Below are positions 11,155 through 44,294 of a stretch of 58,812 nt of DNA, one piece after another. How positions within the stretch are numbered: position 1 is the first letter of the stretch; the number at the start of each line of letters is the position of its first letter. This DNA is from Kiritimatiellia bacterium (lineage in GTDB: Bacteria; Verrucomicrobiota; Kiritimatiellia; CAIVKH01). Below the pieces are notes generated by a model that made no database searches, was not told the origin of the DNA, and saw only the letters and a program-made list of their open reading frames with translations. A program made the translations under genes and the position numbers. The DNA lies in contig JANWZO010000016.1 in assembly GCA_025054615.1 (NCBI GenBank), forward strand, positions 1 through 58,812. Reading direction: 5' to 3'.

Positions 11155-13299
11155 TCAGGGCGCCAGTTGGACGCCGGAGCGGAAGAAGCGGGCGGGCAGC
11201 GAATTGGTTTCCACCCATACGATCGGAACGCCCACGCCCTGGAGGTTTGTGGCAATCGGGATCCACGTGGAATCCATCACGTTGGAAGACGCTTCGATCC
11301 GGTACAGGCGGCCCGTCGCGGTCGGCACAGTGATCGTCTGATCGGTAGCATTTGTTGATACCGCCAGAAGAATGCGATGGAAGTCCGAGGGGTTGTTCGG
11401 ATCCGTCAGCGCGACAAACTCATGAAGGTCGGGGAAACCGTCGCCATCGCTGTCCCGGTCAGGCGGGGATGCGGATGTGCAATCAAATCCGTTCGCGGTT
11501 TCCCAAGCGTCATGCATGCCGTCTCCGTCGATGTCCGGCGTGTCCGATGCGGATGTTCCGAACTGGACGAGTAAGCGCGGCGGCGTGCCCGATTGCTGGT
11601 TGCTCCAGCAGCGCCAATGGTCGCCTGAGCCGTTCGCCGTGAGAACGACGAGTCCGAGATAGTTGCCAGGCGACCAGTCGGGGCGGTTGATGACCTCTTG
11701 AATTACGGCGGCCAGGTTCGGGGAATCATATTCGCCGTGCGTGGCGAACGCCGGCGGCGACCAAGTGACAGACGCGGACGTCAAAGGATAAAGGCCGGTA
11801 ACCGACGGACCGGAACCCCCCACAAACGGGGCGATATTGCTCACGTTGTAGGCGCGAATGATGAAAGTGGGAGATCCACTGTTGTCGGCAAAGCCCCGCA
11901 GGCGGAGCGTCGCGGTTTGGATGGAAGCGCCGGCGGGAATGGCGAGCGGAAACGCCATTGCGGGTTCGTAGCGGTACGATGGCGCATTTTCGCGTCCCGC
12001 GCAGAGGCAATTCGCGTTGTATTGGTTCTGGAAGGCGTTGACACCCGAGAACGACTCCACATTCCGGTTAGCCGCAGGCACCGGTTGGTCGACTGCGCCG
12101 CCGGGGAGGGGGGCATAGCCGGCGCGAAGGAAGAGACCGGTCACAGGAATAAAGAGGAGGCGATTTTGCGGGCCGGCATCGGACCAGCAACGGAACACGT
12201 ACACAGTCCCATTCAACGTTTGATTGGTGGGCGCGATGAGGGTGAACCAGTTCGTCACGGGGAGCATGCGCGTGAACGGTGTGACGTCAGAGACCCCATC
12301 TAGGATAATTGCCAATCCGGAAGGCACTGAGTGGATCGTCACGTTGGTCATGGGCGGCGGCGGGGGCGGCGGTGCCGGCGGACCGAGCGGGGCGGTCCAG
12401 TTCGTGTCGACGCTGCGGGGCATCCATTGGCCGTTGTTTGTGACGCCGGCGATCAGCCGACCCACGGGGGACAGGCCGGTGAGATCATAGACGTTGGTTC
12501 CACTGCCCTCCTCAAACCGGTAATAGGCGACCAGTCCGGGCGTGTTCGTCGCGAGAACGTTCCAATACACGTTGGAAATTTCGGCTTGCGATAGCGCTTG
12601 CGTCCAAACGCGGAACTCGTCGAGAAAGCCATTGAAGGAGGGGTAGGCCGCTCCTGCGTCGTGTTTTTCGGCGGCGAGGACGAGATAGGGATCAGAGTTC
12701 GGATAACTTGTTGGCCGGCCCACGCGGTATCCGATGTGGCCGGTGGGGCCGAAGCCCTGCGCGTCGAGCCGGCCGTCGACATAGATGCGCATCAGTCCAC
12801 TGCTCCGAACGCGCGTCACCGCCACGTGGTGCCAGAGGTCATCCCCCACGTTGTTGGTGCCGACAATCGTGCGGCCGAGATTTGTTCGGGAAAGGCCAAA
12901 CGCCACCACTCGGGATCCGCCGACCGCGCCGATGCTCACCCCAAAATCGCCGTAATCGCCATCGAAGAAAACATCCCGGTCTACGACGACATTCCCTGTA
13001 ATCCACCCGTCGCCGTTGTTCGTGTCGTATACGACGCCATTGTTGTCGGCCGCGCGGCAGCGCATCCAAAATTCGATGGTAAAATCATCGCCTACATTTA
13101 GCGGATTGCCGGGCGAATTGATGGGAATTTTGACACGATCCTGGTCGCCGGGCGGCCCGACTCCGGTGCCGTAGAATCGCAGGGAATAATGCGAAGTTTG
13201 CGCTTGAGCGGCGGGCACAGCCAAAAAGATGCCGGCAGCAGCCACCCAGCCACATGCAATTCTCCAAGCCCGGCACCGATGGATAAGATGCCGAATCAT
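11155..13299 (-). CDS. Secreted LamG / DNRLRE-like / type-3 calcium-repeat protein
   Basis: A secreted protein of 714 residues. The signal peptide ends near AAQA at residue 34. Residues 35-280 form a LamG (concanavalin-like) jelly roll with HHVAVTR, MRIYVDGRLD and VAYYRFEEGSGT. A poly-Pro linker follows, then a short beta-rich unit (TIHSVPSGLAIILDG) and a DNRLRE-like beta-sandwich at about 400-575 (SIQTATLRLRGF, then VIQEVINRPDW and RLLVQF). Two calcium-binding DxDxDG stretches come next (DIDGDGMHDAWE, DRDSDGDGFPDLHE), then a C-terminal module (GRLYRIEASSNV). LamG and DNRLRE units usually bind carbohydrate or sit at the cell surface; no catalytic domain is visible. The C-terminal calcium-repeat plus module arrangement is shared with the giant protein at 30277. 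The start at 13299 gives the best signal peptide. Confidence 0.8.
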   Translation of the reverse strand: MIRHLIHRCRAWRIACGWVAAAGIFLAVPAAQAQTSHYSLRFYGTGVGPPGDQDRVKIPINSPGNPLNVGDDFTIEFWMRCRAADNNGVVYDTNNGDGWITGNVVVDRDVFFDGDYGDFGVSIGAVGGSRVVAFGLSRTNLGRTIVGTNNVGDDLWHHVAVTRVRSSGLMRIYVDGRLDAQGFGPTGHIGYRVGRPTSYPNSDPYLVLAAEKHDAGAAYPSFNGFLDEFRVWTQALSQAEISNVYWNVLATNTPGLVAYYRFEEGSGTNVYDLTGLSPVGRLIAGVTNNGQWMPRSVDTNWTAPLGPPAPPPPPPPMTNVTIHSVPSGLAIILDGVSDVTPFTRMLPVTNWFTLIAPTNQTLNGTVYVFRCWSDAGPQNRLLFIPVTGLFLRAGYAPLPGGAVDQPVPAANRNVESFSGVNAFQNQYNANCLCAGRENAPSYRYEPAMAFPLAIPAGASIQTATLRLRGFADNSGSPTFIIRAYNVSNIAPFVGGSGPSVTGLYPLTSASVTWSPPAFATHGEYDSPNLAAVIQEVINRPDWSPGNYLGLVVLTANGSGDHWRCWSNQQSGTPPRLLVQFGTSASDTPDIDGDGMHDAWETANGFDCTSASPPDRDSDGDGFPDLHEFVALTDPNNPSDFHRILLAVSTNATDQTITVPTATGRLYRIEASSNVMDSTWIPIATNLQGVGVPIVWVETNSLPARFFRSGVQLAP

Positions 13300-29437: not shown

Positions 29438-30070
29438 CTATTTCGCGCGGGCGTTGAAAGCCCGGTCTCCAGCGTCGCCAAGGCCCGGAACGATGAAGCC
29501 GTGGCCATTAAGGTGGGAATCCACCGCGCAGACGAAGATTTCCGTTTCGGGATAAGATTCACGGACGGCATGGATGCCTTCCGGAGCGGCGATCATCGCC
29601 AGGAGCTTGATCCTTCGCACGCCCCAAGATCGGATCGCTTCGAGGGCCGCGAGAGCGGATCCGCCTGTGGCAAGCATGGGGTCGAGAACTAAAGCGATGT
29701 CGACGGCGCCACCCGGTGGCAACTTTTTGTAGTACTCGACGGGTTTCAACGTCTTCTCATCCCGATAGAAGCCGAGGTGCCACACTTCGGCATCCGGAAT
29801 CAGGTCGAGGATCGGCTCAACCATGCCGAGGCCGGCGCGCAGAATGGGCACGAGGCCGATCCGCTCCCGGAGGATCATGGCCTTTGCGGGGGCCAGCGGC
29901 GTTCGAACCTCAACGGCTTCGAGTTCAAGGTTTTGAGTGGCTTCGTAGGCGAGTAGGATCGAAAGTCGCCTTAGCGATTGTCGAAACTCGGAAGAGTCAG
30001 TTTTCTCGTCGCGTAGGCAACAGAGGTGATGTTGAACCAGCGGATGGCGCACCAAGAACACATTATCCAT
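29438..30070 (-). CDS. upp: Uracil phosphoribosyltransferase
   Basis: A pyrimidine salvage enzyme that makes UMP from uracil and PRPP. The 210 residues match the family. Diagnostic stretches are HPLVQHHLCCLRD at the start, ILRAGLGMVEP, the PRPP loop VLDPMLATGGSALAAL and the uracil-binding end FIVPGLGDAGDRAFNA. It lies 75 bases upstream of the ferredoxin gene and is divergent from the giant hydrolase gene across an AT-rich gap of 206 bases. Confidence 0.96.
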   Translation of the reverse strand: MDNVFLVRHPLVQHHLCCLRDEKTDSSEFRQSLRRLSILLAYEATQNLELEAVEVRTPLAPAKAMILRERIGLVPILRAGLGMVEPILDLIPDAEVWHLGFYRDEKTLKPVEYYKKLPPGGAVDIALVLDPMLATGGSALAALEAIRSWGVRRIKLLAMIAAPEGIHAVRESYPETEIFVCAVDSHLNGHGFIVPGLGDAGDRAFNARAK

Positions 30071-30276: not shown

Positions 30277-33200
30277 ATGCGGCGTCGATTTGTTCTGATG
30301 GTAGTCTTGCTGGCGTGCGGGGTTGGGGTGTTCGCACCCGCGCCGTCTCAGTCCGAAGTGATTCTCCAGTTATTCAATACGAGTTGGAGAGAGATGACGG
30401 ACAAGATGCCGGAGTTGGCGGAGGTCGGGTACGGCTCCATTTGGATTCCGCCGCCGACGAAAGGCAGCGGTGGACTGTCTGTTGGCTATGATCTCTGGGA
30501 CCCCTTCGACCTCGGCAGCAAGGACCAGCGGAATACGGTGAGAACCCGCTACGGAACTGAATCAGAGCTTCTTCGGATGATTCAGACGGCTCAGCGGTTC
30601 GGGATTCGGGTCTACATCGACAACATCATGAACCATCGCGCGTTCGATGTGCCGGGGTACAACGAAACGACACCGATCAATCTGTATCCCGGCATGGTTC
30701 CGGAGGATTTTCATCTTCGGGTGACCGAGGACGGCTTCTACCGGAAGTGGGACAACGTCTCGGATTGGAACGATGCATGGCAGGTGTTGAACCGCAATTT
30801 TTCCGATCTGATCGATATTGCGCAGGAGACACCAAATGCCAATTTTGGCCGCTTTGAAGGAAACACGCACCCCAAGGTCAGCTTTGTTCGGCATCCCCAG
30901 AATCCGGAGTATTACGATTATCACCCGACGCTTGGGTACGTAGGTTTCGGGAGCAGCAACATCACGGTGGGGTTGATTCAAAGCAATCAGGCGTTTTACA
31001 GCGAGGACGTCGGGGGCTATTTGATGCGTTCTGTCCGTTGGCTGATGGAACGGACGAAAGCCGACGGTCTGCGCCTCGACGCCGTCAAGCATGTGCCGGA
31101 TTATTTTTTCGGCCAGCAGAGCGGGCCCGGCAAGGATGAGAGCGACGCGGGCTACTGCGGGCAGGCCCAACTTGCTTTCAATCGCGCCCGCGGATTCAAC
31201 GGCGACGGACTCGACAACAATCATCGGGACTCGGTTTTTGACACGGAGCGCCCGCGCGACGACGCGATGATGTTCGGCGAACATCTGGGCGCACCGCCAG
31301 GGTTCTTTGGATATATCGATGCCGGAATGCGTCTGAAAGACGCGCCGCTTCGTGACCGTCTGAACGGCATGCTCGGCGAACCGTGGGGAACTCTTGCCGG
31401 CCTTGATCAGCCGGGTGGCGGGAGTTCGTTTGGGCCCGGGCAGTCCGTCCAATTTGCCCACAGCCATGACAGCGATTACGCGCGGGCGAGGCACCTTCAA
31501 TATGCGTTTTACATGACACGAGCGGGCCTTCCGAATGTCTATTCGGATGGTAATTATCAGTCGGAAACGCTGTCTCAATCGGGTGGGGCATTCCCGCGGC
31601 ATGCGAACACAGCCTATCTGGGACAGTTTGGCGACCAGCGATTGCCAAACCTCGTGTATATCCACAACCATTTCGCTCGCGGGAGCCAGTGGGGAGTTTG
31701 GTCTGACCAGGATTACCTGGCCTACCACCGCATTGATAAGCGCGAGAACCCATCGATGAGCAACGCGGATGGCACGACGCTGCTCTTCCTGATGAACGAC
31801 AACTTTTCTAGCGGCGCCTCGCGTCCAATCGTCGGAAATGTCCAATTTGGGAAGACGCCATTCGTGGATGACACGTATTTGTACAACTACTCCACGTATG
31901 GCGGCGGCTTTTACGTTTACGCCTCCCAGTTAAATTCGATCATCGTGCCTCCCGGCGGTTATTTTGCCTTCGCGCCGAGAACTCCCGAGGAGTCACCGAT
32001 CTGGAGTGCGATTGGAGGGAAAACTATTGAGATCTTCCAGAATGGGGAACGGGCGCCGACGGTCGCGTACGAGCGGCGCGACGGCCCGGACGGCGACCCG
32101 AATTTCAATCCCTACGGCGTCGCCGGCGATGTGGGAGGCGATTTCAAGTACACGTGGACTGTTCCTCGGGTGACATCGTCAACAAACCTCCGATTTGCGG
32201 CGCGAGTCGACGGCTCGGCTATCAACGTGCTGTTCAAGCTCGATGGCGGGATCGATATCAACTCGCAGATGGGACTCGGCGAGACCAACACCGCGGATTG
32301 GGCGCTGAATCGGGAAAATCGACCGGGTAAGGCGACAGATGTCTTTCTGGGATATGAGTCCGCCCGGTTTGTCCAGCGAACGTCCGGCCGTGAGAAATTC
32401 GCTGCTAAATTATCGGCCCGTAATCAATATAATTCTCTCGGATCCGAAAGTTACCAGGTGGTCATTGGGTCAACTAATGTGACGATTTATCCAGGGGTGG
32501 GGTCCAATGACTGGTCCGACGCCGAATCCGTGATCTTCGCCTACCATGACCCCGAGGACGGGATTACGGCTTCGAATCAGCCCGCTCAGAAGCAATTTTC
32601 GCCTCCTCCCGAAAACGCGGCGGGGAGCAACATCTCTATCTGGGTAAAGTCTGGATACAAATTCGACGCCAACAAGGCCTTTGTTTACTACACGACCGAC
32701 GGGACGACCTTCCCAGAGGGCGCGGCGGGGCGTGGGGTGGGCACCACGCGCGTGGCGGAAATGTTCTGGGTGGCTGAAGATACAGGGAACAGCCAGATTG
32801 ATTGGTGGCGCGCCACGTTGCCGCCGATGACCAACGGCACCGTTCTCCGATACAAAATTGGAATGTACCGCGCCCAGAACGGTTCGACGGAGGCGCCCTG
32901 GGACGTTCCCTATCCGACGCACGCCGGGAACGTGGCCAAAAAATATCGGATGATCGGCGAATGGGAGATCACGAACTTCAATGCGGCGGCTGTGAAGTAC
33001 AAGCCGCATTTCGATTACGGCAGGACTGCCACCGGTCTCGTAGAAGGATTCCACGTGCTTCGCGCCCGGGCCTTTCTCGAACGGCCCAACAAGGCCTCGC
33101 TGTACAACACGTTTGTGCAGACCTTTTATTACGACACCATTCCACCCACGGGTCGAATCGTGTTTGCTGCGAACGATGGAGATACGCTCGGTTCACAGGA

Positions 33201-36200
33201 ATACGGGTTTGTCGTGAGGACCGACCCGACCGCCCGCGATGTTTACTACAACATTCAGGACAGCAATCCGCTGAATGACGACGCCAACACCGGACTGAAC
33301 AACGGCAACGGAACCAATGCTCTCGGCCAAATCGCATGGGTGCGGGCCAACCAGGTTACGCCGAGCATCTCGATTCAGAGTGAATTTCCGGATGAATGGC
33401 GCTTTACCTACCGGAACATTCCCGCTTCCGGCGTGGCAACGGTCCAGGTCCGCCTTGCGGAAATCTCTTCGTCCACGAATCTGGCGTTGAGCGATTCCGC
33501 CGGCTGGTTCCAGACCTTGCGGCGCGTGGTCAACACCGCGGGTCCGACTCAGGAGCTTTTTATTGCCTTCCCCTCGTATGACGGGGAATTGATCAACGAC
33601 CAATGGGACTACGTGATGCGGGTGCGATTTAGCAAATCGATCGCGGATCCGTTCACCGAGGCTCAGCTCAAGGATCGATTTCTGGTGCGGATCAACGGCA
33701 GCGCCCAGCCGAAGAACTTTTCCATCGACTGGAACACCACACCCAATCATCACGACCTTCTTTTCACGCTGCCCGACCTCTTCAACGGGGACACGAATTA
33801 TCTTCACAACATCGAGGTCACCTGCCTGACGGCGGGTAATGTGCTGCTGCAGGCTTTCCGCGTCGTGCGAGCGTATTCGGCGGCTCTCGGGCCGTTTGTC
33901 TCGATTGTCATGCCACCGGAGGTTGACTCCGATGGCAAGCCCTACGTCATTGCATTGCGAGATGTCGCGTCCCCGACCGAGGAGGAGCGGAGCCATCCGA
34001 TCGTCGTGGACACGGATTTGTCGGCCAGCAATGTTTGGATCGAATTCGCTCACAATAGCGGGAGCGCATTCCGCCTCCCGAGCGTGTTGAATCCGATTGC
34101 CGGACGGGTGGATGTTGTTAATGGCAGCGCGGCAGTCATTGGTCGCGATGTGGCGCTTTCCGGCACCGTATCCGTGACGATCTCCAACAAACTGGTCACG
34201 GGATCGGGCACGCTGTTCACGAACCAGGTGCGGGCGGGCCAGACGCTTCGCATCGGCGAAATCGATGTTACGGTTACGCAGGTCGTCTCACAGACGCAGC
34301 TCTATCTCGCGGACCCGTTCCCGACCAATTCGCTCACGAACGTTGCCGCGACGCTTCTGGCTCGTTTTGATGTCGAGCTTCAGGCCGGGAGCCAGATCCG
34401 GATTTCCAACCACACGATGACCGTCGCGAGCGTAGTGAACCGCACGAATTTGGTTTTGGCGGCTTCTTATCCGGGACCCACAGCGACCGGGCTGACGGCC
34501 CTACGGGTTGATCCGAATCCGAGGCAGGTCAACGCCAACCGGCTGAAGTGGGAATTTCTTTGGACGAATATCGTCGCGCCTGGTGTCTACACCTTCTTCG
34601 CCCGAGTTGACACAAATGGTGTCACGAACACGGTCGAAGCGAGTGCGACCCGCAATGTGACGGTTGTGTTCCGGCAGGTCGTGCCCGAGAACCCCTCCGA
34701 TGAAGATGACGATGATGACGGGATTTATGATCAATGGGAAAATTCGCCGACAAATCTGCCGCCATCCAATCCCGAGACCTGGGCGAACGGGGATGTCCAC
34801 ATTTGGCGAATCTTCGGCCGCTCCGATCCTCTTTCTCCGGACTCGGATTCGGACGGCCTTTCCGACGGCCTTGAAAGCGGCTGGCGGCTGCCGCTTTCCG
34901 CCACGGACACGAACACGGACACGAATGCAGACGGATGGCCAAATTTCCGTTCAGATCTCGATCCGCCGTTCTTCAACACCCTCGACAATTTCGGCCTCGT
35001 GCCGGGCGTCAACAGCGTGTCGGAAGGCGGGGACCGGACTCGGCTCGTGCAAGGCACGATGACCGATCCTAACAATCCGGACAGCGACTATGACGGTATT
35101 CCGGATGGAGTGGAAGATCGCAACCGCAACGGGTGGACCGACGGGGACGGCGCGTCGCTGGCGCCAACGGCTGCGCCGTCGTTGTCGCGCAACTGGCCGA
35201 ATGACCGCATCGATGTCGGCGAGACCTGGCTTGAAACCAGCCCGACCACGCCCGATACCGACGCGGACGGTCTGAGCGACGGGTACGGCGAAGACAAAAA
35301 CTTCAACGGGTTCGTCGATATTGGACTGGCGCACCCGGTGACAGGTGTCGTCACGGCGCAATTGACCAATGCGGCCGTGCCTAGGATCGGCGGCGCGCTC
35401 TCGCGCCACATAGACCGACCCGCCCTGATTTCAGCTTACAGCAATGCGGTGTACCTGGAAACCGACCCGTTGATGAAGGACACCGACGGCGATGGTCTGC
35501 CGGATGGCTGGGAAGTCCAGTATGGTCTAGATCCGCTGGATTCCGGTGTGATTGGCCAGCGAAGTCTGAGAACCGGCCTGCCCATCACGAGCACGGTTCA
35601 CGGCGCATTCGGGAACCCCGATCTAGACGTCATATGCAGCACAACGAATGAGTATTACAACCTCCTCGAGTTCATCAACGGTACCAACCCGCGTTGGCCG
35701 GAGCACTGTGGCGCGCCCCCCGAGGGTTCCATCGTGATCGGCCGCGGGACGAATGTCCTGGGCGTCATCAACGGGGTCACGAATTGGGGTGAATTTACGG
35801 ATTGGACGTGGAGCGATTTGGTCGTGCTCGATGAATACGAGGGGGATGGCCCCAACAACCAGGGCGGGGACGTTTATATGGCATGGGACGGGTTCGACTC
35901 TTCTCGTGACCTCGTTGCGTTTTACGCTCGCGATGGCGGCGCGGCGAGCGGGGAATTCTATTTCCGCGTCGACCTGCATGACCTAGTGACGCTCGCAGAG
36001 GAGGGCAATCTTGATATCTACGTGGTGATCGACACCGGCAATCCGCTCGCTGGAGAAATGGCCCTGCCGGATGACGTCGACCTGGTGACCAGCATGCGCT
36101 GGGAGGTGGTGGTGGCCGCCTATCAGTCCGGGCAAGGGGCCGTTTATGTGGACACGAATCCGACCAGTAACTCCACATTGATGGGACATGGCGGTAACCT

Positions 36201-39051
36201 GACGGCCTTCGGCGTCCAGCGCCGCGACCAGAATCATCCGACCGGATTCCGCGCGTCCTATTACAATTCCGAACTTGACGCCGTCGAATTCAGCATCAGC
36301 CGCCAGGCCCTCTTCGACGCAGGCTGGATCGGAAATGTCAGCTCGCTGAATTTCCAGGTTTTCACCGTGAAGGATGGAACCTGCAATTCCTGCGGCTCCG
36401 GCGGGCGTCCTGGCGCGGGAGATATTGGAGGGCGTAATGACGCGCGGGATACGATCTACGACGATCACGTCGCCGAGGATTACTGGCAGGCGCAGGGCCA
36501 GATTCAGAATGCCTTGGTCCATTACTTCAACAAGGGCACATTTGCCGGCCGCGCCAAGGTCGCGATGGTCGCCCACGGCAACCAGCACATCCTGCCCGGC
36601 AGTGACATCCAGCGGCTGATCAACAATGGTCAGGGCGCGGGCTATCACCGCCTCCTAGCCATTCATGAGGTCTACAAGAAGCCGGTGAATCTGCACATCA
36701 CCCCGACGCTGGCCTCCGCGATCCAATGGGCTTCGGTCGATCCGGCCTTCGGCACGCCCTGGCGCGATGGTCCGGCGTTCAACGACTGGATTCGGAGCCT
36801 CGTTCAGACCGGAATCGTTCGGCTGCTCGCCAGCACATTCTCCGACCATATCCTGCCTTATTACACGCCGGAATATAACGTGGACAATGACGCGCTTGCG
36901 CGCGAGTTCCTACACCACTTCTACGGCGTGACTTTCGGTCCCGGGACGGTCTTCTGGACGCCGGAGCGCGTGCTCGATGCGGATGTCTTCAGCAAAATCT
37001 CCACGATGGGATATCAGGCGACACTGGTCGACCAGGACACGCACCTTTTCTACTGGATTGGCCGGTCGGAATCGCTGAGCCAGGGCGGCTACCAGATCAA
37101 CCAGATCAACGGCATCAAGACGTTCGCGATTCACAATTTCGCGTCCACCTACCGCTTCCAAAATCATGATCGCGGTCTGAACATGCCATTGCGAGGAATT
37201 TTCAGCCGACGCGCGCGGGCGTGGGCGCAGGATCAGATTCTCGTGCTCTTCGGCAATTGGGAGGATTTCGGATCGGGTTTAAACGCCGATGCCTACGACC
37301 GAAATGTCCGCTGGATCGCGAACCGGCCCTGGATCGAAATCGTCGCGCTTGAAGACGTGCTCAACCATCAGGTCGATTTGAACCGCGATGGCGCCGGCGA
37401 TTCGTGGACGGTCATCAACCGTGGCGCTGTCGCAACGAACAAGCTCAGCCACAATTACATTCAGCACGCGTCGCGCGGGAATTACGACAACTGGTATGTC
37501 GGCTTGGCGGGCGCCGAGCACGGCCTGATGACCAACCGGTTCGACATCCGGACCGGCGTGAAGGTGCCGACGCAGTACGGCATGCTGTACGTCGGCGGGA
37601 TCGTTTCGCAGTCTTGGGATTCCGTGAAGTCCATCGCGGACACGAATATCGGAAAACTGGGCCGCGCCGTGATGCATGCCTCCGGGTTCCAGACGGCGTT
37701 CCACGACGAGGACAACAGGAACCTTGAGAGGTTCAGCCTCGGGACCTATGTGTCCCCCGACACCACGTTTGACCTGCTGGCCGATTTCGCCAGATACGCT
37801 CAGTCCCAGACGCGGTTTGCCCGTCAGCAGCGCCGGGTCGACGCGTGGGCGGCAATCGCGCCGACCATCACCACCCCGCAGGCCGTTGCCGAAGATGTCG
37901 ACCTCGATGGCGAAGACGAATATCTCCTCTTCAATGATCGAGTCTTCGCCATATTTGAGCGGATCGGCGGCCGAATGGTTGGGGCATGGACACGCGATAT
38001 CCTCAGCGGTCGAGTATTCCAGGCCATCGGCAACCCCGTCTCCTACCCGGGCACGGAAAGCGAGGAAGAAGGGGATTTCAATGCATTCACGAATGGCGCG
38101 ATCCGCGCCTACCGCACATCCGGTCTCAAGGATTGGTGGGCTACGAAGGGTGGGGGAACCAGCACGTACGTCAATAATCTCTACAGCTTCACCTATTGGA
38201 CCAATGGATGGCGAATGGTATCGTCCGACGGCGATATCACGAAAATCGTCACCCTTCAACCGAAGAGCTGGCGGTTCCGGGTCGATTACCACCTGGCTGG
38301 CGGGATGGCCGGTCAGACGCTCTACATCCGGCATGGCCTGTCGCCAAATCTCTATGACCTGCTCCTCAACGGACAGCGGACGCTCACCCCGGCAGTCACG
38401 AACGGCGGCGTGTTGACGTTGGCGAACACCGCTTATCAGTTCACGGTTTCTGCCGAAATCGCCTACGGAGATTCCGGCCACAACACCGCATACAACCCGG
38501 CGGCGGTGGACCATCCGCAACGCGGCACGAACGTTTTCACCCGAAACATGAGGAATCAGGCGCAAACCCACCAGGTTGAACTGTTCGGGTCCGGATCCTT
38601 CTCATTCAGCATCGGCCTTCGGGCGACCATGTCCGACTGGGATCAGGACGGTATTCCCAACCTGATTGAGGACCAATACGGGTTTCTCAATCCCTTGAAC
38701 CCCTCCGATGCGTGGAATGACACTGACAACGACGGCGTTCGCAACGCTGATGAATGGATCATGAACACGGCGCTCAACGATCCTGCTGATTTTCTGAAGT
38801 GGACTTCCCTCATGCCGACGAATGCCGGAGGATTTGCCATCCGATTCCCGAGCAAACTCCAGCGCGAATACCGTGTCTGGTACGCCAACAGCGGTCCGCA
38901 TAATAATGCCCACTGGTTACAGGCAACGACAAATGCCATACCGGGAACGGGCGGGATAATCACCTGGATCGATGATGGGACGCTAACCAGTCCGCACCCA
39001 TCGGCGGCCACGAACCGGACCTACCAGATCCGCGTCAACCTGCCGGAATAA
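30277..39051 (+). CDS. Giant secreted GH13-GH57 fusion amylase-like protein
   Basis: A secreted protein of 2924 residues with two glycoside hydrolase domains. The signal peptide covers residues 1-26. GH13 follows at about 27-560: YIDNIMNH (Asp115, His120), nucleophile Asp268 in DGLRLDAVKHV, acid/base Glu335 in FGEHLG and Asp398 in AHSHDSDY, so all catalytic residues are kept. Beta-rich regions without a clear name fill 570-1470. DxDxDG calcium repeats lie at 1475-1760, then a glucodextranase/DOMON-like sandwich at about 1830-2060. A GH57-like domain spans about 2095-2360 with HGNQH (His2100), the candidate nucleophile Glu2230 in FWTPERVLD and NWEDFG (2328-2332). The end has more beta structure, calcium repeats (DWDQDGIPN, DTDNDGVRN) and the C-terminal module of the 11155 gene. 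The ATG at 30277 has GGGAG 7 bases before it. Likely substrates are starch or glycogen-like alpha-glucans. Confidence 0.85.
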   Translation: MRRRFVLMVVLLACGVGVFAPAPSQSEVILQLFNTSWREMTDKMPELAEVGYGSIWIPPPTKGSGGLSVGYDLWDPFDLGSKDQRNTVRTRYGTESELLRMIQTAQRFGIRVYIDNIMNHRAFDVPGYNETTPINLYPGMVPEDFHLRVTEDGFYRKWDNVSDWNDAWQVLNRNFSDLIDIAQETPNANFGRFEGNTHPKVSFVRHPQNPEYYDYHPTLGYVGFGSSNITVGLIQSNQAFYSEDVGGYLMRSVRWLMERTKADGLRLDAVKHVPDYFFGQQSGPGKDESDAGYCGQAQLAFNRARGFNGDGLDNNHRDSVFDTERPRDDAMMFGEHLGAPPGFFGYIDAGMRLKDAPLRDRLNGMLGEPWGTLAGLDQPGGGSSFGPGQSVQFAHSHDSDYARARHLQYAFYMTRAGLPNVYSDGNYQSETLSQSGGAFPRHANTAYLGQFGDQRLPNLVYIHNHFARGSQWGVWSDQDYLAYHRIDKRENPSMSNADGTTLLFLMNDNFSSGASRPIVGNVQFGKTPFVDDTYLYNYSTYGGGFYVYASQLNSIIVPPGGYFAFAPRTPEESPIWSAIGGKTIEIFQNGERAPTVAYERRDGPDGDPNFNPYGVAGDVGGDFKYTWTVPRVTSSTNLRFAARVDGSAINVLFKLDGGIDINSQMGLGETNTADWALNRENRPGKATDVFLGYESARFVQRTSGREKFAAKLSARNQYNSLGSESYQVVIGSTNVTIYPGVGSNDWSDAESVIFAYHDPEDGITASNQPAQKQFSPPPENAAGSNISIWVKSGYKFDANKAFVYYTTDGTTFPEGAAGRGVGTTRVAEMFWVAEDTGNSQIDWWRATLPPMTNGTVLRYKIGMYRAQNGSTEAPWDVPYPTHAGNVAKKYRMIGEWEITNFNAAAVKYKPHFDYGRTATGLVEGFHVLRARAFLERPNKASLYNTFVQTFYYDTIPPTGRIVFAANDGDTLGSQEYGFVVRTDPTARDVYYNIQDSNPLNDDANTGLNNGNGTNALGQIAWVRANQVTPSISIQSEFPDEWRFTYRNIPASGVATVQVRLAEISSSTNLALSDSAGWFQTLRRVVNTAGPTQELFIAFPSYDGELINDQWDYVMRVRFSKSIADPFTEAQLKDRFLVRINGSAQPKNFSIDWNTTPNHHDLLFTLPDLFNGDTNYLHNIEVTCLTAGNVLLQAFRVVRAYSAALGPFVSIVMPPEVDSDGKPYVIALRDVASPTEEERSHPIVVDTDLSASNVWIEFAHNSGSAFRLPSVLNPIAGRVDVVNGSAAVIGRDVALSGTVSVTISNKLVTGSGTLFTNQVRAGQTLRIGEIDVTVTQVVSQTQLYLADPFPTNSLTNVAATLLARFDVELQAGSQIRISNHTMTVASVVNRTNLVLAASYPGPTATGLTALRVDPNPRQVNANRLKWEFLWTNIVAPGVYTFFARVDTNGVTNTVEASATRNVTVVFRQVVPENPSDEDDDDDGIYDQWENSPTNLPPSNPETWANGDVHIWRIFGRSDPLSPDSDSDGLSDGLESGWRLPLSATDTNTDTNADGWPNFRSDLDPPFFNTLDNFGLVPGVNSVSEGGDRTRLVQGTMTDPNNPDSDYDGIPDGVEDRNRNGWTDGDGASLAPTAAPSLSRNWPNDRIDVGETWLETSPTTPDTDADGLSDGYGEDKNFNGFVDIGLAHPVTGVVTAQLTNAAVPRIGGALSRHIDRPALISAYSNAVYLETDPLMKDTDGDGLPDGWEVQYGLDPLDSGVIGQRSLRTGLPITSTVHGAFGNPDLDVICSTTNEYYNLLEFINGTNPRWPEHCGAPPEGSIVIGRGTNVLGVINGVTNWGEFTDWTWSDLVVLDEYEGDGPNNQGGDVYMAWDGFDSSRDLVAFYARDGGAASGEFYFRVDLHDLVTLAEEGNLDIYVVIDTGNPLAGEMALPDDVDLVTSMRWEVVVAAYQSGQGAVYVDTNPTSNSTLMGHGGNLTAFGVQRRDQNHPTGFRASYYNSELDAVEFSISRQALFDAGWIGNVSSLNFQVFTVKDGTCNSCGSGGRPGAGDIGGRNDARDTIYDDHVAEDYWQAQGQIQNALVHYFNKGTFAGRAKVAMVAHGNQHILPGSDIQRLINNGQGAGYHRLLAIHEVYKKPVNLHITPTLASAIQWASVDPAFGTPWRDGPAFNDWIRSLVQTGIVRLLASTFSDHILPYYTPEYNVDNDALAREFLHHFYGVTFGPGTVFWTPERVLDADVFSKISTMGYQATLVDQDTHLFYWIGRSESLSQGGYQINQINGIKTFAIHNFASTYRFQNHDRGLNMPLRGIFSRRARAWAQDQILVLFGNWEDFGSGLNADAYDRNVRWIANRPWIEIVALEDVLNHQVDLNRDGAGDSWTVINRGAVATNKLSHNYIQHASRGNYDNWYVGLAGAEHGLMTNRFDIRTGVKVPTQYGMLYVGGIVSQSWDSVKSIADTNIGKLGRAVMHASGFQTAFHDEDNRNLERFSLGTYVSPDTTFDLLADFARYAQSQTRFARQQRRVDAWAAIAPTITTPQAVAEDVDLDGEDEYLLFNDRVFAIFERIGGRMVGAWTRDILSGRVFQAIGNPVSYPGTESEEEGDFNAFTNGAIRAYRTSGLKDWWATKGGGTSTYVNNLYSFTYWTNGWRMVSSDGDITKIVTLQPKSWRFRVDYHLAGGMAGQTLYIRHGLSPNLYDLLLNGQRTLTPAVTNGGVLTLANTAYQFTVSAEIAYGDSGHNTAYNPAAVDHPQRGTNVFTRNMRNQAQTHQVELFGSGSFSFSIGLRATMSDWDQDGIPNLIEDQYGFLNPLNPSDAWNDTDNDGVRNADEWIMNTALNDPADFLKWTSLMPTNAGGFAIRFPSKLQREYRVWYANSGPHNNAHWLQATTNAIPGTGGIITWIDDGTLTSPHPSAATNRTYQIRVNLPE

Positions 39052-39205: not shown

Positions 39206-39865
39206 ATGGCGCAAGTTTTTCATCGATCCGCGAACACGATTGCGCGATTCAGTATCGTTGGTCTGGTTTTTCTCATTACCGGCGCCCTTGTCGCGTTGGA
39301 CCAGCTCACGCGCTCGCCGTACACCACGGAGGTCGGGGTAGCCCGCGCGCAGCCAATTCCCTTCAGTCACAAGCACCATGCCAACATGGGGATCGATTGC
39401 CGTTATTGCCATACGTCCGTCGAGGACGCCGCGTTTGCCGGCATTCCGCCGACAAAGACCTGTATGAATTGTCACTCCATGATCTTTGCCGATGTTCCTA
39501 TGCTCGAACCGGTTCGAGAGAGCTGGAGGACCGGTGAGTCGCTGCAATGGACTCGCGTGCACGACCTGCCCCAGTTTGCCTACTTCAACCACAGCATCCA
39601 TGTGGCCAAAGGAATCGGATGCTCGACCTGCCACGGGCGGGTCGACGAGATGCCGCTGGTTTACAAGGCAAATGACCTGTACATGCAGTGGTGCCTCGAT
39701 TGCCACCGCGCTCCGGAGAATTATGTGCGTCCGAAAGATAAAATTTTTGACATGGCGTGGCAGCCACCGCCCAATCAGCGGGAAGTGGGATTGCAACTGG
39801 TGAAGGAATACAAGATCGACACTGAACACTATAAAATGCTCGATTGCAATTTGTGCCATCGATGA
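39206..39865 (+). CDS. actA: Alternative complex III pentaheme cytochrome c, ActA
   Basis: A membrane-anchored multiheme cytochrome of 219 residues. One N-terminal helix (about 14-32) is followed by exactly five heme sites: CRYCH (65-69), CMNCH (86-90), CSTCH (139-143), CLDCH (163-167) and CNLCH (214-218). Five hemes and this position as first gene identify ActA of alternative complex III, the quinol:electron-acceptor oxidoreductase that replaces the bc1 complex. Its last bases overlap the actB start (ATGA). Confidence 0.92.
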   Translation: MAQVFHRSANTIARFSIVGLVFLITGALVALDQLTRSPYTTEVGVARAQPIPFSHKHHANMGIDCRYCHTSVEDAAFAGIPPTKTCMNCHSMIFADVPMLEPVRESWRTGESLQWTRVHDLPQFAYFNHSIHVAKGIGCSTCHGRVDEMPLVYKANDLYMQWCLDCHRAPENYVRPKDKIFDMAWQPPPNQREVGLQLVKEYKIDTEHYKMLDCNLCHR

Positions 39866-42800
39866 GCGATCGAAATCCATCTGTTACGGCGGGCGCGGAA
39901 GCCCTGTTCGAGCGGGCCCTGTCCGAGAGCCGATGCTCGAATTCTACCGCGCTGTGGCGCAGCTTGGAGGAGCTCGCCGAATCGCGAGGCGCAGACCCGA
40001 AGAACCTCCGGGACTCGCTGGAACGGTACGCCGCCGTTGCTGAATGGGATCCGATCGACCGCCGTGATTTCCTTCGGCTCATGGGGGCGTCTCTGGCGCT
40101 GGCGGGGCTGACCGCGTGCACCAAGCAACCTGAGGAGAAGATTGTGCCTTACGTTCGGGCGCCAGAGGACGTGGTGCCCGGCAAACCGCTGTTTTTTGCA
40201 ACTTCTTTTGTCCATGCGGGTTATGCCGAGGGGATTCTGGCCGAGAGCCACATGGGTCGCCCGACCAAAATCGAGGGCAATCCGTTGCACCCGGCAAGCT
40301 TGGGCGGATCGAGCTTGTTCGCGCAGGCATCGGTCCTCCAACTGTACGATCCCGATCGCTCTCAAGCGCACTTAAAATTTGGCCGTCAGGCGACATGGGA
40401 TCAGTTCATTCGCGAAGTTGAAAACGAGCTAGTTTCACTCCAGTTATCTCAGGGTGCCGGTCTACGCATTCTGACCGAATCGGTAACCTCTCCGACCCTG
40501 ATCGCCCAGATCCGCAGCCTTCTCGAACGCTTTCCTCAGGCGAAGTGGCACGTCTACGAGCCGGTCAATCACGACAACATCTTCGCCGGGGCCGAGCTTG
40601 CCTTTGGAGAGCCTTTGTGGCCGCGATATCACTTCGACAAGGCCGCTGTTGTGCTCTCGCTGGACAGCGACTTTCTCGGTCGCGGTCCCGGTCACGTTCG
40701 ATACGCACGGGATTTTGCCTCGCGCCATTCGCCGCTTTCGACCGAGGGCATGAGCCGCCTCTATGTGGTCGAATCCTCGGCAAGTATTACAGGTGGGCAG
40801 GCTGACCATCGCTTGGCGGTCCGTGCAAGTCGTGTGGAGTGGATCGCGCGCGCAATCGCGCGGGGGTTGGGCATCGATGCGGCTGCCGGTCCCGGCGACG
40901 CTGAAAAGGCATGGATTGAGGCGGTTGTTCGAGACCTCAAACGTCATCGGGGCGCCGCCGTGGTACTGGCGGGCGAAAATCAACCGCCGATCGTCCACGC
41001 CTTGGCGCACGCCATGAACGAGGCGCTCGATGCGTTTGGCAAAACCGTCGAAATGCTTCCGCCAGTCGAAGTTTTTCAGGGCTCCCAGACGGAATCGATC
41101 AAAGAGCTGGCGGCGGACATGAAAGCCGGTCTCGTCAAGATGCTCTTCATCCTGGGGGGGAATCCTGTCTACACCGCGCCGGCAGATTGCCAGTTTGAAG
41201 AAGCTCTGCAAAAGGTCCCCTTCAGCGTCCACCACAGCCTTTATCGCGACGAAACGTCCAGATGGTGTCGCTGGCATATCGCTGCGACGCATTATCTCGA
41301 AGAGTGGAGCGATGCCCGAGCTTTCGACGGTACAGCCTCGATCATCCAGCCGCTGATCGAGCCTCTCTACAGCGGGCGCTCGGCTCATGAGGTTATGGCG
41401 GCGCTTCTGGGGCAAACCGGGAAGAAAGGGTTGGAACTCGTCCAGGAGCATTGGAAGGCCCAGGCCCAAAATGCGCCCGATTTTGAGAAACAGTGGCGCC
41501 GCTGGCTTCACGATGGCCTCGTCCACGGATCCGCTTTTGCCGGGAAAACTGTAGGAGTCAAACGCGGACTGGCGTCGGAACCCCCTGTTGAGAAAGCTTT
41601 GGGCGCCTCTGAGTTGGAGCTTTCCTTCCAGCCCGATTATGGAACTTGGGACGGGCGTTACGCCAACAACGGGTGGCTTCAGGAAGTGCCGCGACCCATG
41701 ACGCAGATTGTCTGGGACAATGTCGTGCTCCTTGCGCCCCAGACGGCTGCCTTGAGGCGTTTACGGAACGGATTCGTGGTGGAATTGATTTCCAGCGGTT
41801 ACAAGGTGAGGGCCCCTGTGTTTGTCCAGGCCGGCCATCCGGAGGACTGCGCCACGGTTTTGATGGGTGGCGGCAGGAGCCGTGCCGGCCGGGTGGGAAA
41901 TGGCGCCGGCTTCAACGCATTCGCTCTAAGGTCCACTGCCCAGCCATGGATTACTGTAGGTCTCGCGCGCGATACTGGGGAGACATCCGTCGTCGTGACG
42001 ACCCAGGAACACCACCGCCTGAGCGAGAAACACCACGCACGATTATATCGATCCGCGACGCTGGATGAGTTCAGGAAGAAGCCCGATTTTGTCAGGAAGT
42101 ACGACGAGTTCGGTCAAACACCACCCTCCATCTACCCGGACTTCGATTACACCAAGGGCAACCAGTGGGGAATGGTGGTCAATCTCAATGCCTGCATCGG
42201 CTGTAACGCCTGTGTCGTTGCCTGCCAGGCCGAAAACAACATTCCGGTGGTCGGCAAGGATCAGGTACGACGCGGGCGGGAAATGCACTGGATCCGGGTT
42301 GATCGATATTTTGTCGGTGATCCACAAAATCCGGCGATCGCACTGCAGCCGGTCACCTGCATGCATTGCGAGAATGCGCCATGCGAAGCGGTCTGCCCTG
42401 TAGCCGCGACCGTGCACAGCCGCGAAGGCCTGAACCAGATGGTGTACAACCGATGCGTCGGCACCCGTTATTGCTCAAACAACTGCCCCTACAAAGTCCG
42501 TCGCTTCAACTTCTACAAGTTTGCTGATCACACCACGCCTTCGCTAAAACTGCAGCGAAATCCGGACGTGACCGTTCGCGCGCGAGGGGTGATGGAAAAG
42601 TGCACCTTCTGCGTGCAGCGCATCAGCGAGGCACGGATCGAGGCGAAGAAGAAGGGGCGTCTTGTCGACGTGGTTCAGGACGGCCTTCAAACTGCCTGCC
42701 AACAGGCCTGCCCGACGCGGGCCATCGTCTTTGGCGACATCAACAATCCAGAGGACCCGGTCGCCAAGTTACGCGCCTTGCCGCTGAATTACGGCATGTT

Positions 42801-42909
42801 GGTCGAGCTCAACACGCGTCCGCGGCTGACCTATTTGGCGAAGGTGCGCAACCCGAATCCCGATCTGGAACAACCGGCCGTTGAAACGGCCCACGGGGAA
42901 CATGCCTGA
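39862..42909 (+). CDS. actB: Alternative complex III iron-sulfur/molybdopterin-like subunit, ActB
   Basis: The large periplasmic subunit of 1015 residues. It begins with a twin-arginine signal, RRDFLRLMG at 67-75, followed by LTACTK, a possible lipobox. The N-terminal two thirds resembles molybdopterin oxidoreductases; ActB proteins keep the fold without the cofactor. The C-terminal third is a ferredoxin-like subunit with four cysteine clusters: NACIGCNACVVACQ (about 777), CMHCENAPCEAVCP (about 833), CTFCVQ (about 914) and ACQQACPTRA (about 945), for several iron-sulfur clusters. Both halves are fused, as usual in ActB. Start overlaps actA, and the stop overlaps actC (TGATG). Confidence 0.93.
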   Translation: MSDRNPSVTAGAEALFERALSESRCSNSTALWRSLEELAESRGADPKNLRDSLERYAAVAEWDPIDRRDFLRLMGASLALAGLTACTKQPEEKIVPYVRAPEDVVPGKPLFFATSFVHAGYAEGILAESHMGRPTKIEGNPLHPASLGGSSLFAQASVLQLYDPDRSQAHLKFGRQATWDQFIREVENELVSLQLSQGAGLRILTESVTSPTLIAQIRSLLERFPQAKWHVYEPVNHDNIFAGAELAFGEPLWPRYHFDKAAVVLSLDSDFLGRGPGHVRYARDFASRHSPLSTEGMSRLYVVESSASITGGQADHRLAVRASRVEWIARAIARGLGIDAAAGPGDAEKAWIEAVVRDLKRHRGAAVVLAGENQPPIVHALAHAMNEALDAFGKTVEMLPPVEVFQGSQTESIKELAADMKAGLVKMLFILGGNPVYTAPADCQFEEALQKVPFSVHHSLYRDETSRWCRWHIAATHYLEEWSDARAFDGTASIIQPLIEPLYSGRSAHEVMAALLGQTGKKGLELVQEHWKAQAQNAPDFEKQWRRWLHDGLVHGSAFAGKTVGVKRGLASEPPVEKALGASELELSFQPDYGTWDGRYANNGWLQEVPRPMTQIVWDNVVLLAPQTAALRRLRNGFVVELISSGYKVRAPVFVQAGHPEDCATVLMGGGRSRAGRVGNGAGFNAFALRSTAQPWITVGLARDTGETSVVVTTQEHHRLSEKHHARLYRSATLDEFRKKPDFVRKYDEFGQTPPSIYPDFDYTKGNQWGMVVNLNACIGCNACVVACQAENNIPVVGKDQVRRGREMHWIRVDRYFVGDPQNPAIALQPVTCMHCENAPCEAVCPVAATVHSREGLNQMVYNRCVGTRYCSNNCPYKVRRFNFYKFADHTTPSLKLQRNPDVTVRARGVMEKCTFCVQRISEARIEAKKKGRLVDVVQDGLQTACQQACPTRAIVFGDINNPEDPVAKLRALPLNYGMLVELNTRPRLTYLAKVRNPNPDLEQPAVETAHGEHA

Positions 42910-44294
42910 TGTCCGCTACCGCTCCAGAGGCGAAATTGGGGTATGAAGAGATTCCGGAGGTCGTAGACCTCCGACACACCTATGACTCCGCGACCGACAA
43001 GATCAATGGCGTGATTTTGTCGGGGAAGACGCCCATGCCATTGGCCGTCGCGATGGGAATTACGTTCCTGGTCGCAGGCATTCTGTTCCTGACGATCGGA
43101 CATTTGCTCCGCATGGGTATCGGCATTTGGGGCAACAACCAGCCGGTCGCTTGGGCCTTCGACATCATCAATTTCGTGTGGTGGATTGGGATTGGCCACG
43201 CCGGGACGTTGATCTCCGCCATCTTGTTCCTGTTTCGACAGGAATGGCGGACATCCATCAACCGTTTTGCCGAGGCGATGACGATTTTCGCCGTCATGTG
43301 CGCGGGACTTTTCCCGCTCCTTCATACCGGCCGACCCTGGCTCGCCTACTGGCTGTTTCCCTATCCGAACGTGATGCAGATGTATCCGCAGTTCCGCAGC
43401 CCTCTGATGTGGGACGTCTTCGCGGTTTCGACCTACTTCACGATTTCTCTGCTGTTCTGGTACACGGGCTTGATCCCCGACCTCGCGAGCCTGCGAGATC
43501 GCGCCAAGAATAGGATCACCAAGGTCATTGCCGGCATTTTTGCCATGGGTTGGCGCGGCTCCGCTCGCCACTGGCAGCGTTACGAGATCATCTATCTCTT
43601 GCTGGCCGGCATTTCAACCCCCCTGGTGGTATCCGTGCACAGCATCGTCGCCTTGGATTTCGCCGTTTCCCAGTTACCCGGCTGGCATACCACGATCTTT
43701 CCGCCGTATTTCGTTGCTGGCGCCATCTATTCGGGTTTCGCCATGGTCCTGACGCTCGCGATTCCAGTGCGGGCCCTGTTCGGCTTCAAGGATTTCATCA
43801 CGCAGAAGCACCTGGACGTGATTTCGAAGGTGATGCTCGCGACGGGCCTGATTGTCCTCTACGGGTATGCGATGGAAGCGTTTATCGCTCTCGTCTACAG
43901 CGCGAACCCCCATGAGGAATTTCTGATGCGGAACCGTATGTTCGGTCCGTACGGCTGGAGCTACTGGGCGCTAATTTTGTGCAACGGCGTGATTCCCCAG
44001 TTGTTGTGGTTCAAGAAGATTCGCCTGCACACCGGAATTGTCTGGGTGATATCCATCGTTATCAACATTGGCATGTGGCTCGAGCGGTATGTCATCCTGG
44101 TGACAACGCTGCACCGGGATTTCGTCCCAAGCTCATGGGGTATGTACACGCCGACCATCTTCGATTTCTCGATGTTCATTGGCACCATCGGGTTTTTTGG
44201 ATTCATGATGTGTCTCTTCCTGAGGTTTGTCCCGTCCGTCGCCGCTTTTGAGCTGAGGGAACTTCTCCACAAGAAGAAAGCGCATCCCCATTGA
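42909..44294 (+). CDS. actC: Alternative complex III quinol-binding subunit ActC (NrfD-like)
   Basis: A polytopic protein of 461 residues with about ten membrane helices, of the NrfD/PsrC family that binds quinol. Recognisable stretches are VWWIGIGHAGTLISAILFLFRQEWRTSINRFAEAMT near residue 95 and RPWLAYWLFPYPN near 145. The ATG overlaps the actB stop. ActC and ActF are homologues, and ActC holds the quinol site in structures of the complex. The cytoplasmic C-terminus ends in a short Lys/His-rich tail. Confidence 0.93.
   Translation: MSATAPEAKLGYEEIPEVVDLRHTYDSATDKINGVILSGKTPMPLAVAMGITFLVAGILFLTIGHLLRMGIGIWGNNQPVAWAFDIINFVWWIGIGHAGTLISAILFLFRQEWRTSINRFAEAMTIFAVMCAGLFPLLHTGRPWLAYWLFPYPNVMQMYPQFRSPLMWDVFAVSTYFTISLLFWYTGLIPDLASLRDRAKNRITKVIAGIFAMGWRGSARHWQRYEIIYLLLAGISTPLVVSVHSIVALDFAVSQLPGWHTTIFPPYFVAGAIYSGFAMVLTLAIPVRALFGFKDFITQKHLDVISKVMLATGLIVLYGYAMEAFIALVYSANPHEEFLMRNRMFGPYGWSYWALILCNGVIPQLLWFKKIRLHTGIVWVISIVINIGMWLERYVILVTTLHRDFVPSSWGMYTPTIFDFSMFIGTIGFFGFMMCLFLRFVPSVAAFELRELLHKKKAHPH

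Follow-up and report, generated by a model that had tools for sequence, protein, structure and literature searches.

A GH13 alpha-amylase unit and a GH57-like unit are joined in one continuous reading frame of 2,924 residues in a bacterium of the Kiritimatiellia lineage, and this fusion is real, old and recurrent across the phylum Verrucomicrobiota. The gene lies in the window analysed here, a stretch of 58,812 nucleotides on contig 16 of a draft genome of 2.48 Mb (51 contigs, 95% complete). Judging from sequence and predicted structures, we lean, without strong confidence, towards the view that it encodes a secreted, calcium-rich, multi-modular alpha-glucan enzyme, in which the GH13 half would cut and the GH57-like half would mainly bind and position the glucan or act in a non-classical manner.

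Organisation of the chain

The preliminary description of this DNA had read the gene as one uninterrupted, exported chain with GH13 and GH57 folds separated by calcium repeats and beta-sandwiches. Translation reproduces its coordinates exactly, Pfam together with AlphaFold and Foldseek bears out both folds, and a Pfam TSP3_bac match and an all-beta model account for the intervening parts; export would proceed via a predicted signal peptide. An in-frame TTG start is also present 6 codons upstream of 30277 in the ORF listing. The parts of the chain are as follows.

30277-39051, + strand: complete ORF encoding the GH13-GH57 fusion (2,924 aa, one terminal stop)
30277-30354, + strand: predicted signal peptide, residues 1-26 (MRRRFVLMVVLLACGVGVFAPAPSQS), showing a positive n-region, a hydrophobic core and small residues ahead of EVILQ, with counterparts in homologues
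30355-32076, + strand: GH13 alpha-amylase catalytic unit, residues ~27-600 (PDB profile matches, Foldseek, invariant catalytic residues)
31078-31080, + strand: GH13 nucleophile Asp268 (GLRLDAVKH), in 54/54 readable rows
31279-31281, + strand: GH13 proton donor Glu335 (FGEHLG), in 55/55 readable rows
31468-31470, + strand: GH13 transition-state stabiliser Asp398 (SHDSD), in 56/56 rows
32089-34146, + strand: beta-sandwich domain series, residues ~605-1290, all-beta in the AlphaFold model
34147-34506, + strand: lineage-specific insert of ~120 residues before the calcium repeats, residues ~1291-1410, present in only 24-30% of fusions over 1301-1400
34654-35646, + strand: calcium-type DxDxDG/TSP3 repeat linker, residues ~1460-1790 (Pfam TSP3_bac), conserved in fusions
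35719-36531, + strand: beta-rich domain preceding GH57, residues ~1815-2085 (alignment and model), also in stand-alone GH57 relatives
36550-37371, + strand: GH57-like (beta/alpha)7 barrel, residues ~2092-2365 (model, Foldseek, HHalign)
36574-36588, + strand: HGNQH, residues 2100-2104, equivalent of GH57 CSR-1, aligned with LHGHLP of a canonical GH57
36964-36966, + strand: GH57 nucleophile equivalent Glu2230 (FWTPER) at the end of strand 4, in 56/56 fusions and 9/9 stand-alone relatives, aligned with FWLPEC / GVWLTER
37255-37257, + strand: Asn2327 at the GH57 proton-donor position (alignment and model)
37261-37266, + strand: Glu2329-Asp2330, candidate replacement acids
37876-38631, + strand: C-terminal beta-sandwich of the GH57 unit, residues ~2534-2785 (model; the top fold match, TLGT 1k1x, extends over 794 columns)
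38629-39048, + strand: C-terminal module of two calcium-type repeats and a short beta-domain, common to many ORFs of the same genome

On sequence and on the predicted model alike, the N-terminal half is placed in GH13 by every test made. The Pfam GH13 profile scores 37.4 bits against a cut-off of 22, and when the PDB is searched with a profile of 45 N-terminal halves, liquefying amylases of archaea and bacteria come up (1mwo, E 1.3e-37; 3bc9, E 1.8e-35). The AlphaFold model of residues 27-1200 (pLDDT 85, pTM 0.84) has the TIM-barrel alpha-amylase fold, and its best 50 Foldseek matches are only alpha-amylases and related GH13 enzymes (E 2e-19). The Asp/Glu/Asp triad, reported as complete in the preliminary description, is invariant together with D115, R266, K271, H272 and H397 in the readable rows of the 56 fusions compared; position 119 is Asn except in three readable rows. 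The half shares its catalytic fold, the four GH13 motifs and the complete triad with the GH13_5/GH13_7 liquefying alpha-amylases (1mwo, 3bc9, 1e3x), to which it is ~18-21% identical in structural alignment; unlike in those enzymes, the GH13 unit here is only the first fifth of a multi-modular exported chain. The simplest expectation is that it works as an endo-amylase.

The GH57-like domain begins about 1,500 residues after GH13. Within the beta-sandwich stretch (residues ~605-1290) W/Y positions are conserved, the profile region 763-855 gives a weak match to the N-terminus of alpha-amylase 8jnx in the PDB profile search, and in our reading residues ~770-900 look like a starch-binding-type beta-domain. 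The TSP3_bac match falls at residues 1735-1755, and the calcium-type repeats probably serve as a rigid linker. At the other end of the chain, a profile of the C-terminal module has 38 matches in the genome, many on large, probably exported ORFs. The window holds two copies, at 38629-39048 and at 11158-11577 (- strand), each with two DxDxDG repeats and a short beta-domain ending in YRI/YRV. The preliminary description had supposed that the chain may be held on the cell surface; recurrence of the module in dozens of ORFs would agree with a shared tail for sorting or attachment, and the module looks like an undescribed tail of this kind.

Recurrence and descent of the fusion

Since the window comes from a draft genome of 51 contigs, an assembly join or sequencing artefact had to be considered as the source of so long a chain. 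The same uninterrupted fusion, with both halves in one frame, was found in 56 distinct full-length ORFs from 49 genomes (window included; 2,414-3,383 aa). A contig scan for relatives returned three close relatives, and full-length homologues in two other assemblies are ~82-83% (L039; nearest 83%) and 73% (L038, 'Kiritimatiellia bacterium ACE_NR_VERR3') identical. A fusion-specific query, residues 1280-1935 with the calcium-repeat linker included, had matches in 58 of 346 genomes from the class Kiritimatiellia and in 40 of 388 genomes sampled across the phylum Verrucomicrobiota; seven of those 40 lie outside Kiritimatiellia, and all seven carry ORFs of 2,757-2,881 aa. The architecture in the preliminary description is thus present in relatives both within and beyond the class. 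Furthermore, pairwise distances of the GH13 and GH57 halves are correlated (r=0.61; maximum of 500 permutations, 0.21), which argues that the two halves have travelled together. Recurrence of the uninterrupted fusion and co-inheritance of its halves exclude an assembly join, and the chance that the chain is an artefact is vanishingly small.

When the tree is rooted on the stand-alone GH57 group described below, all fusions fall into a single clade. The fusion event would have occurred once, before the sampled Verrucomicrobiota classes split or before transfer between them, and the gene would then have been inherited as a unit. In one genome (G007, L060:4468-12993, - strand) the fusion gene is split among four frames, reflecting either a decaying gene or assembly indel errors. 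A 26,627-residue 'ORF' containing the fusion (G075 contig 61, L111-L115) was rejected as an artefact, 72,000 of 80,708 bases being N.

Fold and catalytic positions of the GH57-like half

The Pfam GH57 profile (PF03065) matches residues 2165-2261 marginally, with 21.6 bits against a cut-off of 21.2 (23.6 when the GH57 half is searched alone), and 22 of 33 related modules match it, the best at 4.7e-10. A sequence-profile search of the PDB with this half returned no relevant relative, so that the GH57 assignment rests on fold, HHalign and Pfam. In the AlphaFold model of residues 1810-2790 (pLDDT 87.6, pTM 0.89) the seven strands of the incomplete (beta/alpha)7 barrel follow in order and are succeeded by a helical bundle, as in GH57, and GH57 structures are the best matches in the PDB; the barrel named in the preliminary description is therefore present in the prediction. 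The top fold match is the 4-alpha-glucanotransferase of T. litoralis (1k1x, E 1.5e-20). The best 50 matches also include the amylopullulanases of A. aeolicus and S. marinus, the branching enzyme of T. thermophilus and AmyC of T. maritima, with GH38 alpha-mannosidases interleaved among them. TM-scores stay modest (0.2-0.5), an effect of the several domains in the query and of the large rmsd of the alignments. The T. litoralis enzyme (1k1w/1k1x) shares the barrel, the helical region and the C-terminal beta-sandwich, and has its nucleophile in xxxER(V). In contrast to it, the GH57 half of the fusion, which is 12% identical, has no Asp at the donor position and is preceded by a beta-rich domain and GH13, and the relationship is not recognised by sequence profile.

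In GH57 the nucleophile is a Glu at strand 4 and the proton donor an Asp at strand 7 (PMC6037648). HHalign places HGNQ and FWTPER of the fusion opposite CSR-1 and CSR-3 of a canonical GH57 from the same genome, which agrees with where the preliminary description had put HGNQH and FWTPE with Glu2230. The final His of HGNQH, which it had counted as kept, is conserved in only 12 of the 56 fusions, with Ala in 35; H2100 is present in 56/56 and N2102 in 55/56. The typical CSR-1 is of the H-x-H-x-P type, and the fusions read H-G-N-Q-x, with Asn third. In the model Glu2230, the strand-4 (CSR-3) nucleophile, follows strand 4, and R2231 beside it is invariant across the fusions. What the preliminary description overlooked is the donor position, the last residue of strand 7 (CSR-4), where the Asp is replaced by Asn2327. 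Across the 56 fusions this position is N in 17, M in 13, D in 10, R in 4, A in 4, H in 3 and another residue in 5, and 2326 is never Asp. With the GH57 fold and the nucleophile in place and the donor Asp missing, the C-terminal half is best called GH57-like.

The donor comparison relies on stand-alone paralogues, chosen by homology alone, and on proteins of the same genome from a Pfam search; a DxE check on canonical GH57 proteins of relatives is partly circular, the set having been chosen with that pattern. The nine stand-alone relatives (L064, L071-L078) consist of the beta domain, GH57 and the beta-sandwich (878-1,278 aa, ~30% identical), with the motifs HANQS, VPERV and FDDWEA, and their host genomes mostly carry the fusion too. 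They appear to be an uncharacterised GH57 group. In 9/9 of them both 2326 and 2327 are Asp. Other GH57 proteins of the same genome read TDGENG, YDAELFG, SDGDNYG and TDGDNAWG at the donor site; phmmer searches of two of them against the PDB, made to map the donor residue, gave no matches. The ten fusions with Asp2327 form one nested part of the tree and mostly have Ser or Gly at 2329, so that their Asp2327 looks like a secondary regain. Loss of the donor Asp while E2230, R2231 and H2100 stay invariant argues that the GH57 pocket is still under selection.

Proposed function and genomic setting

The reading to which we lean assigns the two halves different tasks. The GH13 unit would be an endo-acting liquefying alpha-amylase, GH13_5/GH13_7-like, and would do the cutting. 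The C-terminal half, with its beta domain, (beta/alpha)7 barrel, helical region and beta-sandwich, would be an old unit derived from GH57 that retains its nucleophile, and probably its glucan pocket, but no longer has the classical donor; it most likely binds glucan chains and offers them to the amylase, or at best acts by a non-classical route. Observed here are the anatomy of the chain, its conservation, the predicted folds and the missing Asp; amylase activity, a binding role for the GH57-like half, export with attachment, and a single origin are inferred. Against a purely binding role stands the invariance of Glu2230 in all fusions, for which binding alone would give no clear reason, and the Asp at the donor site in ten fusions and the well-conserved acids at +2/+3 leave room for catalysis.

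These acids are the basis of an alternative in which both halves are catalytic and the proton comes not from Asp2327 but from Glu2329 and/or Asp/Glu2330, which closely follow strand 7. Position 2330 is acidic in 52/56 fusions and Ala in 9/9 stand-alone relatives, so that an acid occurs there only in fusions, and E2329 is found in 45/56. Moreover, position 2329 is Ser or Gly in 7 of the 10 Asp2327 fusions (Fisher p = 1.4e-4 over rows), as if one acid were needed at either place, a p-value that overstates the case because these fusions are nested in the tree and the rows are non-independent. The invariant nucleophile fits this alternative as well; however, ordinary GH57 enzymes also have a Glu at +2 beside the Asp, and retention of the acid need not imply a new role. 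We regard a relocated acid as possible, if on the unlikely side, and it is doubtful that the GH57-like half constitutes an unrecognised group of active enzymes, with its acid moved to Glu2329/Asp2330 and coupled to a GH13 endo-amylase.

The preliminary description had envisaged a glucan-degrading machine of two working enzymes, an amylase plus a branching or debranching activity. Its conserved GH13 and its GH57 fold stand, and the fold, the invariant nucleophile, the CSR1/CSR3 motifs and the presence in the same genome of an exported GH57 protein with complete motifs (contig 2, 1,388 aa) would all suit a GH13 amylase joined to a GH57 partner of classical type (amylase, branching or debranching enzyme). 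The classical donor, however, is Asn here and non-Asp in 46/56 fusions, and a GH57 without one catalytic residue is very probably unable to act as a typical GH57 (PMC6037648). Branching or debranching activity is therefore not implied by the motifs, and two classical enzymes in one chain are decidedly improbable.

Spread over several ORFs, the genome has 14 places that match GH13 and 5 that match GH57, and the many other exported and cytosolic proteins of these families suggest that alpha-glucan is a central substrate. One of them, an exported ORF of 2,277 residues (L080:4617-11447, contig 3), has an N-terminal GH13 35% identical to that of the fusion and a second, complete-looking GH13 near its C-terminus, so that long chains with two glucan modules would be a recurrent habit of the lineage. 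About ten related genomes have ORFs of 2,030-2,309 aa whose N-terminal GH13 is related to it. A search around the fusion gene for a conserved operon or utilisation locus met housekeeping genes (uracil phosphoribosyltransferase (UPRTase), a tail-specific protease, Fe-S/NrfD-type redox genes) with no functional link, and beyond the closest relative most of these neighbours are no longer found. The UPRTase gene (29438-30070, - strand) adjoins the fusion, and four relatives examined also have a homologue close to their fusion gene, with other neighbours differing. The opening part of a redox operon occupies 39844-44294 (+ strand): a 1,021-aa 4Fe-4S protein comes first and an NrfD-type membrane protein second, a combination that hints at an enzyme of the alternative complex III type.

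Searches of open-access literature on GH57 combined with GH13 fusions, multidomain enzymes or the taxon found no description of a GH13-GH57 chain. A published secreted enzyme with alpha-amylase and pullulanase domains likewise carries two alpha-glucan modules in one chain, both of which we take to be GH13, whereas the second fold of the present fusion is GH57-like and without the usual donor. GH57 'like' groups that lack one catalytic residue are already known, and a GH57 sequence of an Opitutaceae bacterium has been mentioned as unclassifiable (PMC6037648); the latter is possibly a relative of the GH57-like module. The known groups share with this module a GH57 fold with incomplete catalytic machinery, but they are related to named specificities, whereas the module is a separate, Verrucomicrobiota-borne GH57 branch joined to GH13.

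An exported chain that combines two unrelated alpha-glucan folds and is retained across a phylum is an uncommon architecture. For annotation, the caution is that a motif-based label of dual amylase/branching enzyme is probably wrong for the second half. The 56 fusions and nine stand-alone paralogues provide a natural series of the same GH57 pocket with and without its proton donor, and they make testable the question of what becomes of a retaining glycosidase fold after its acid is lost and its nucleophile is still invariant.
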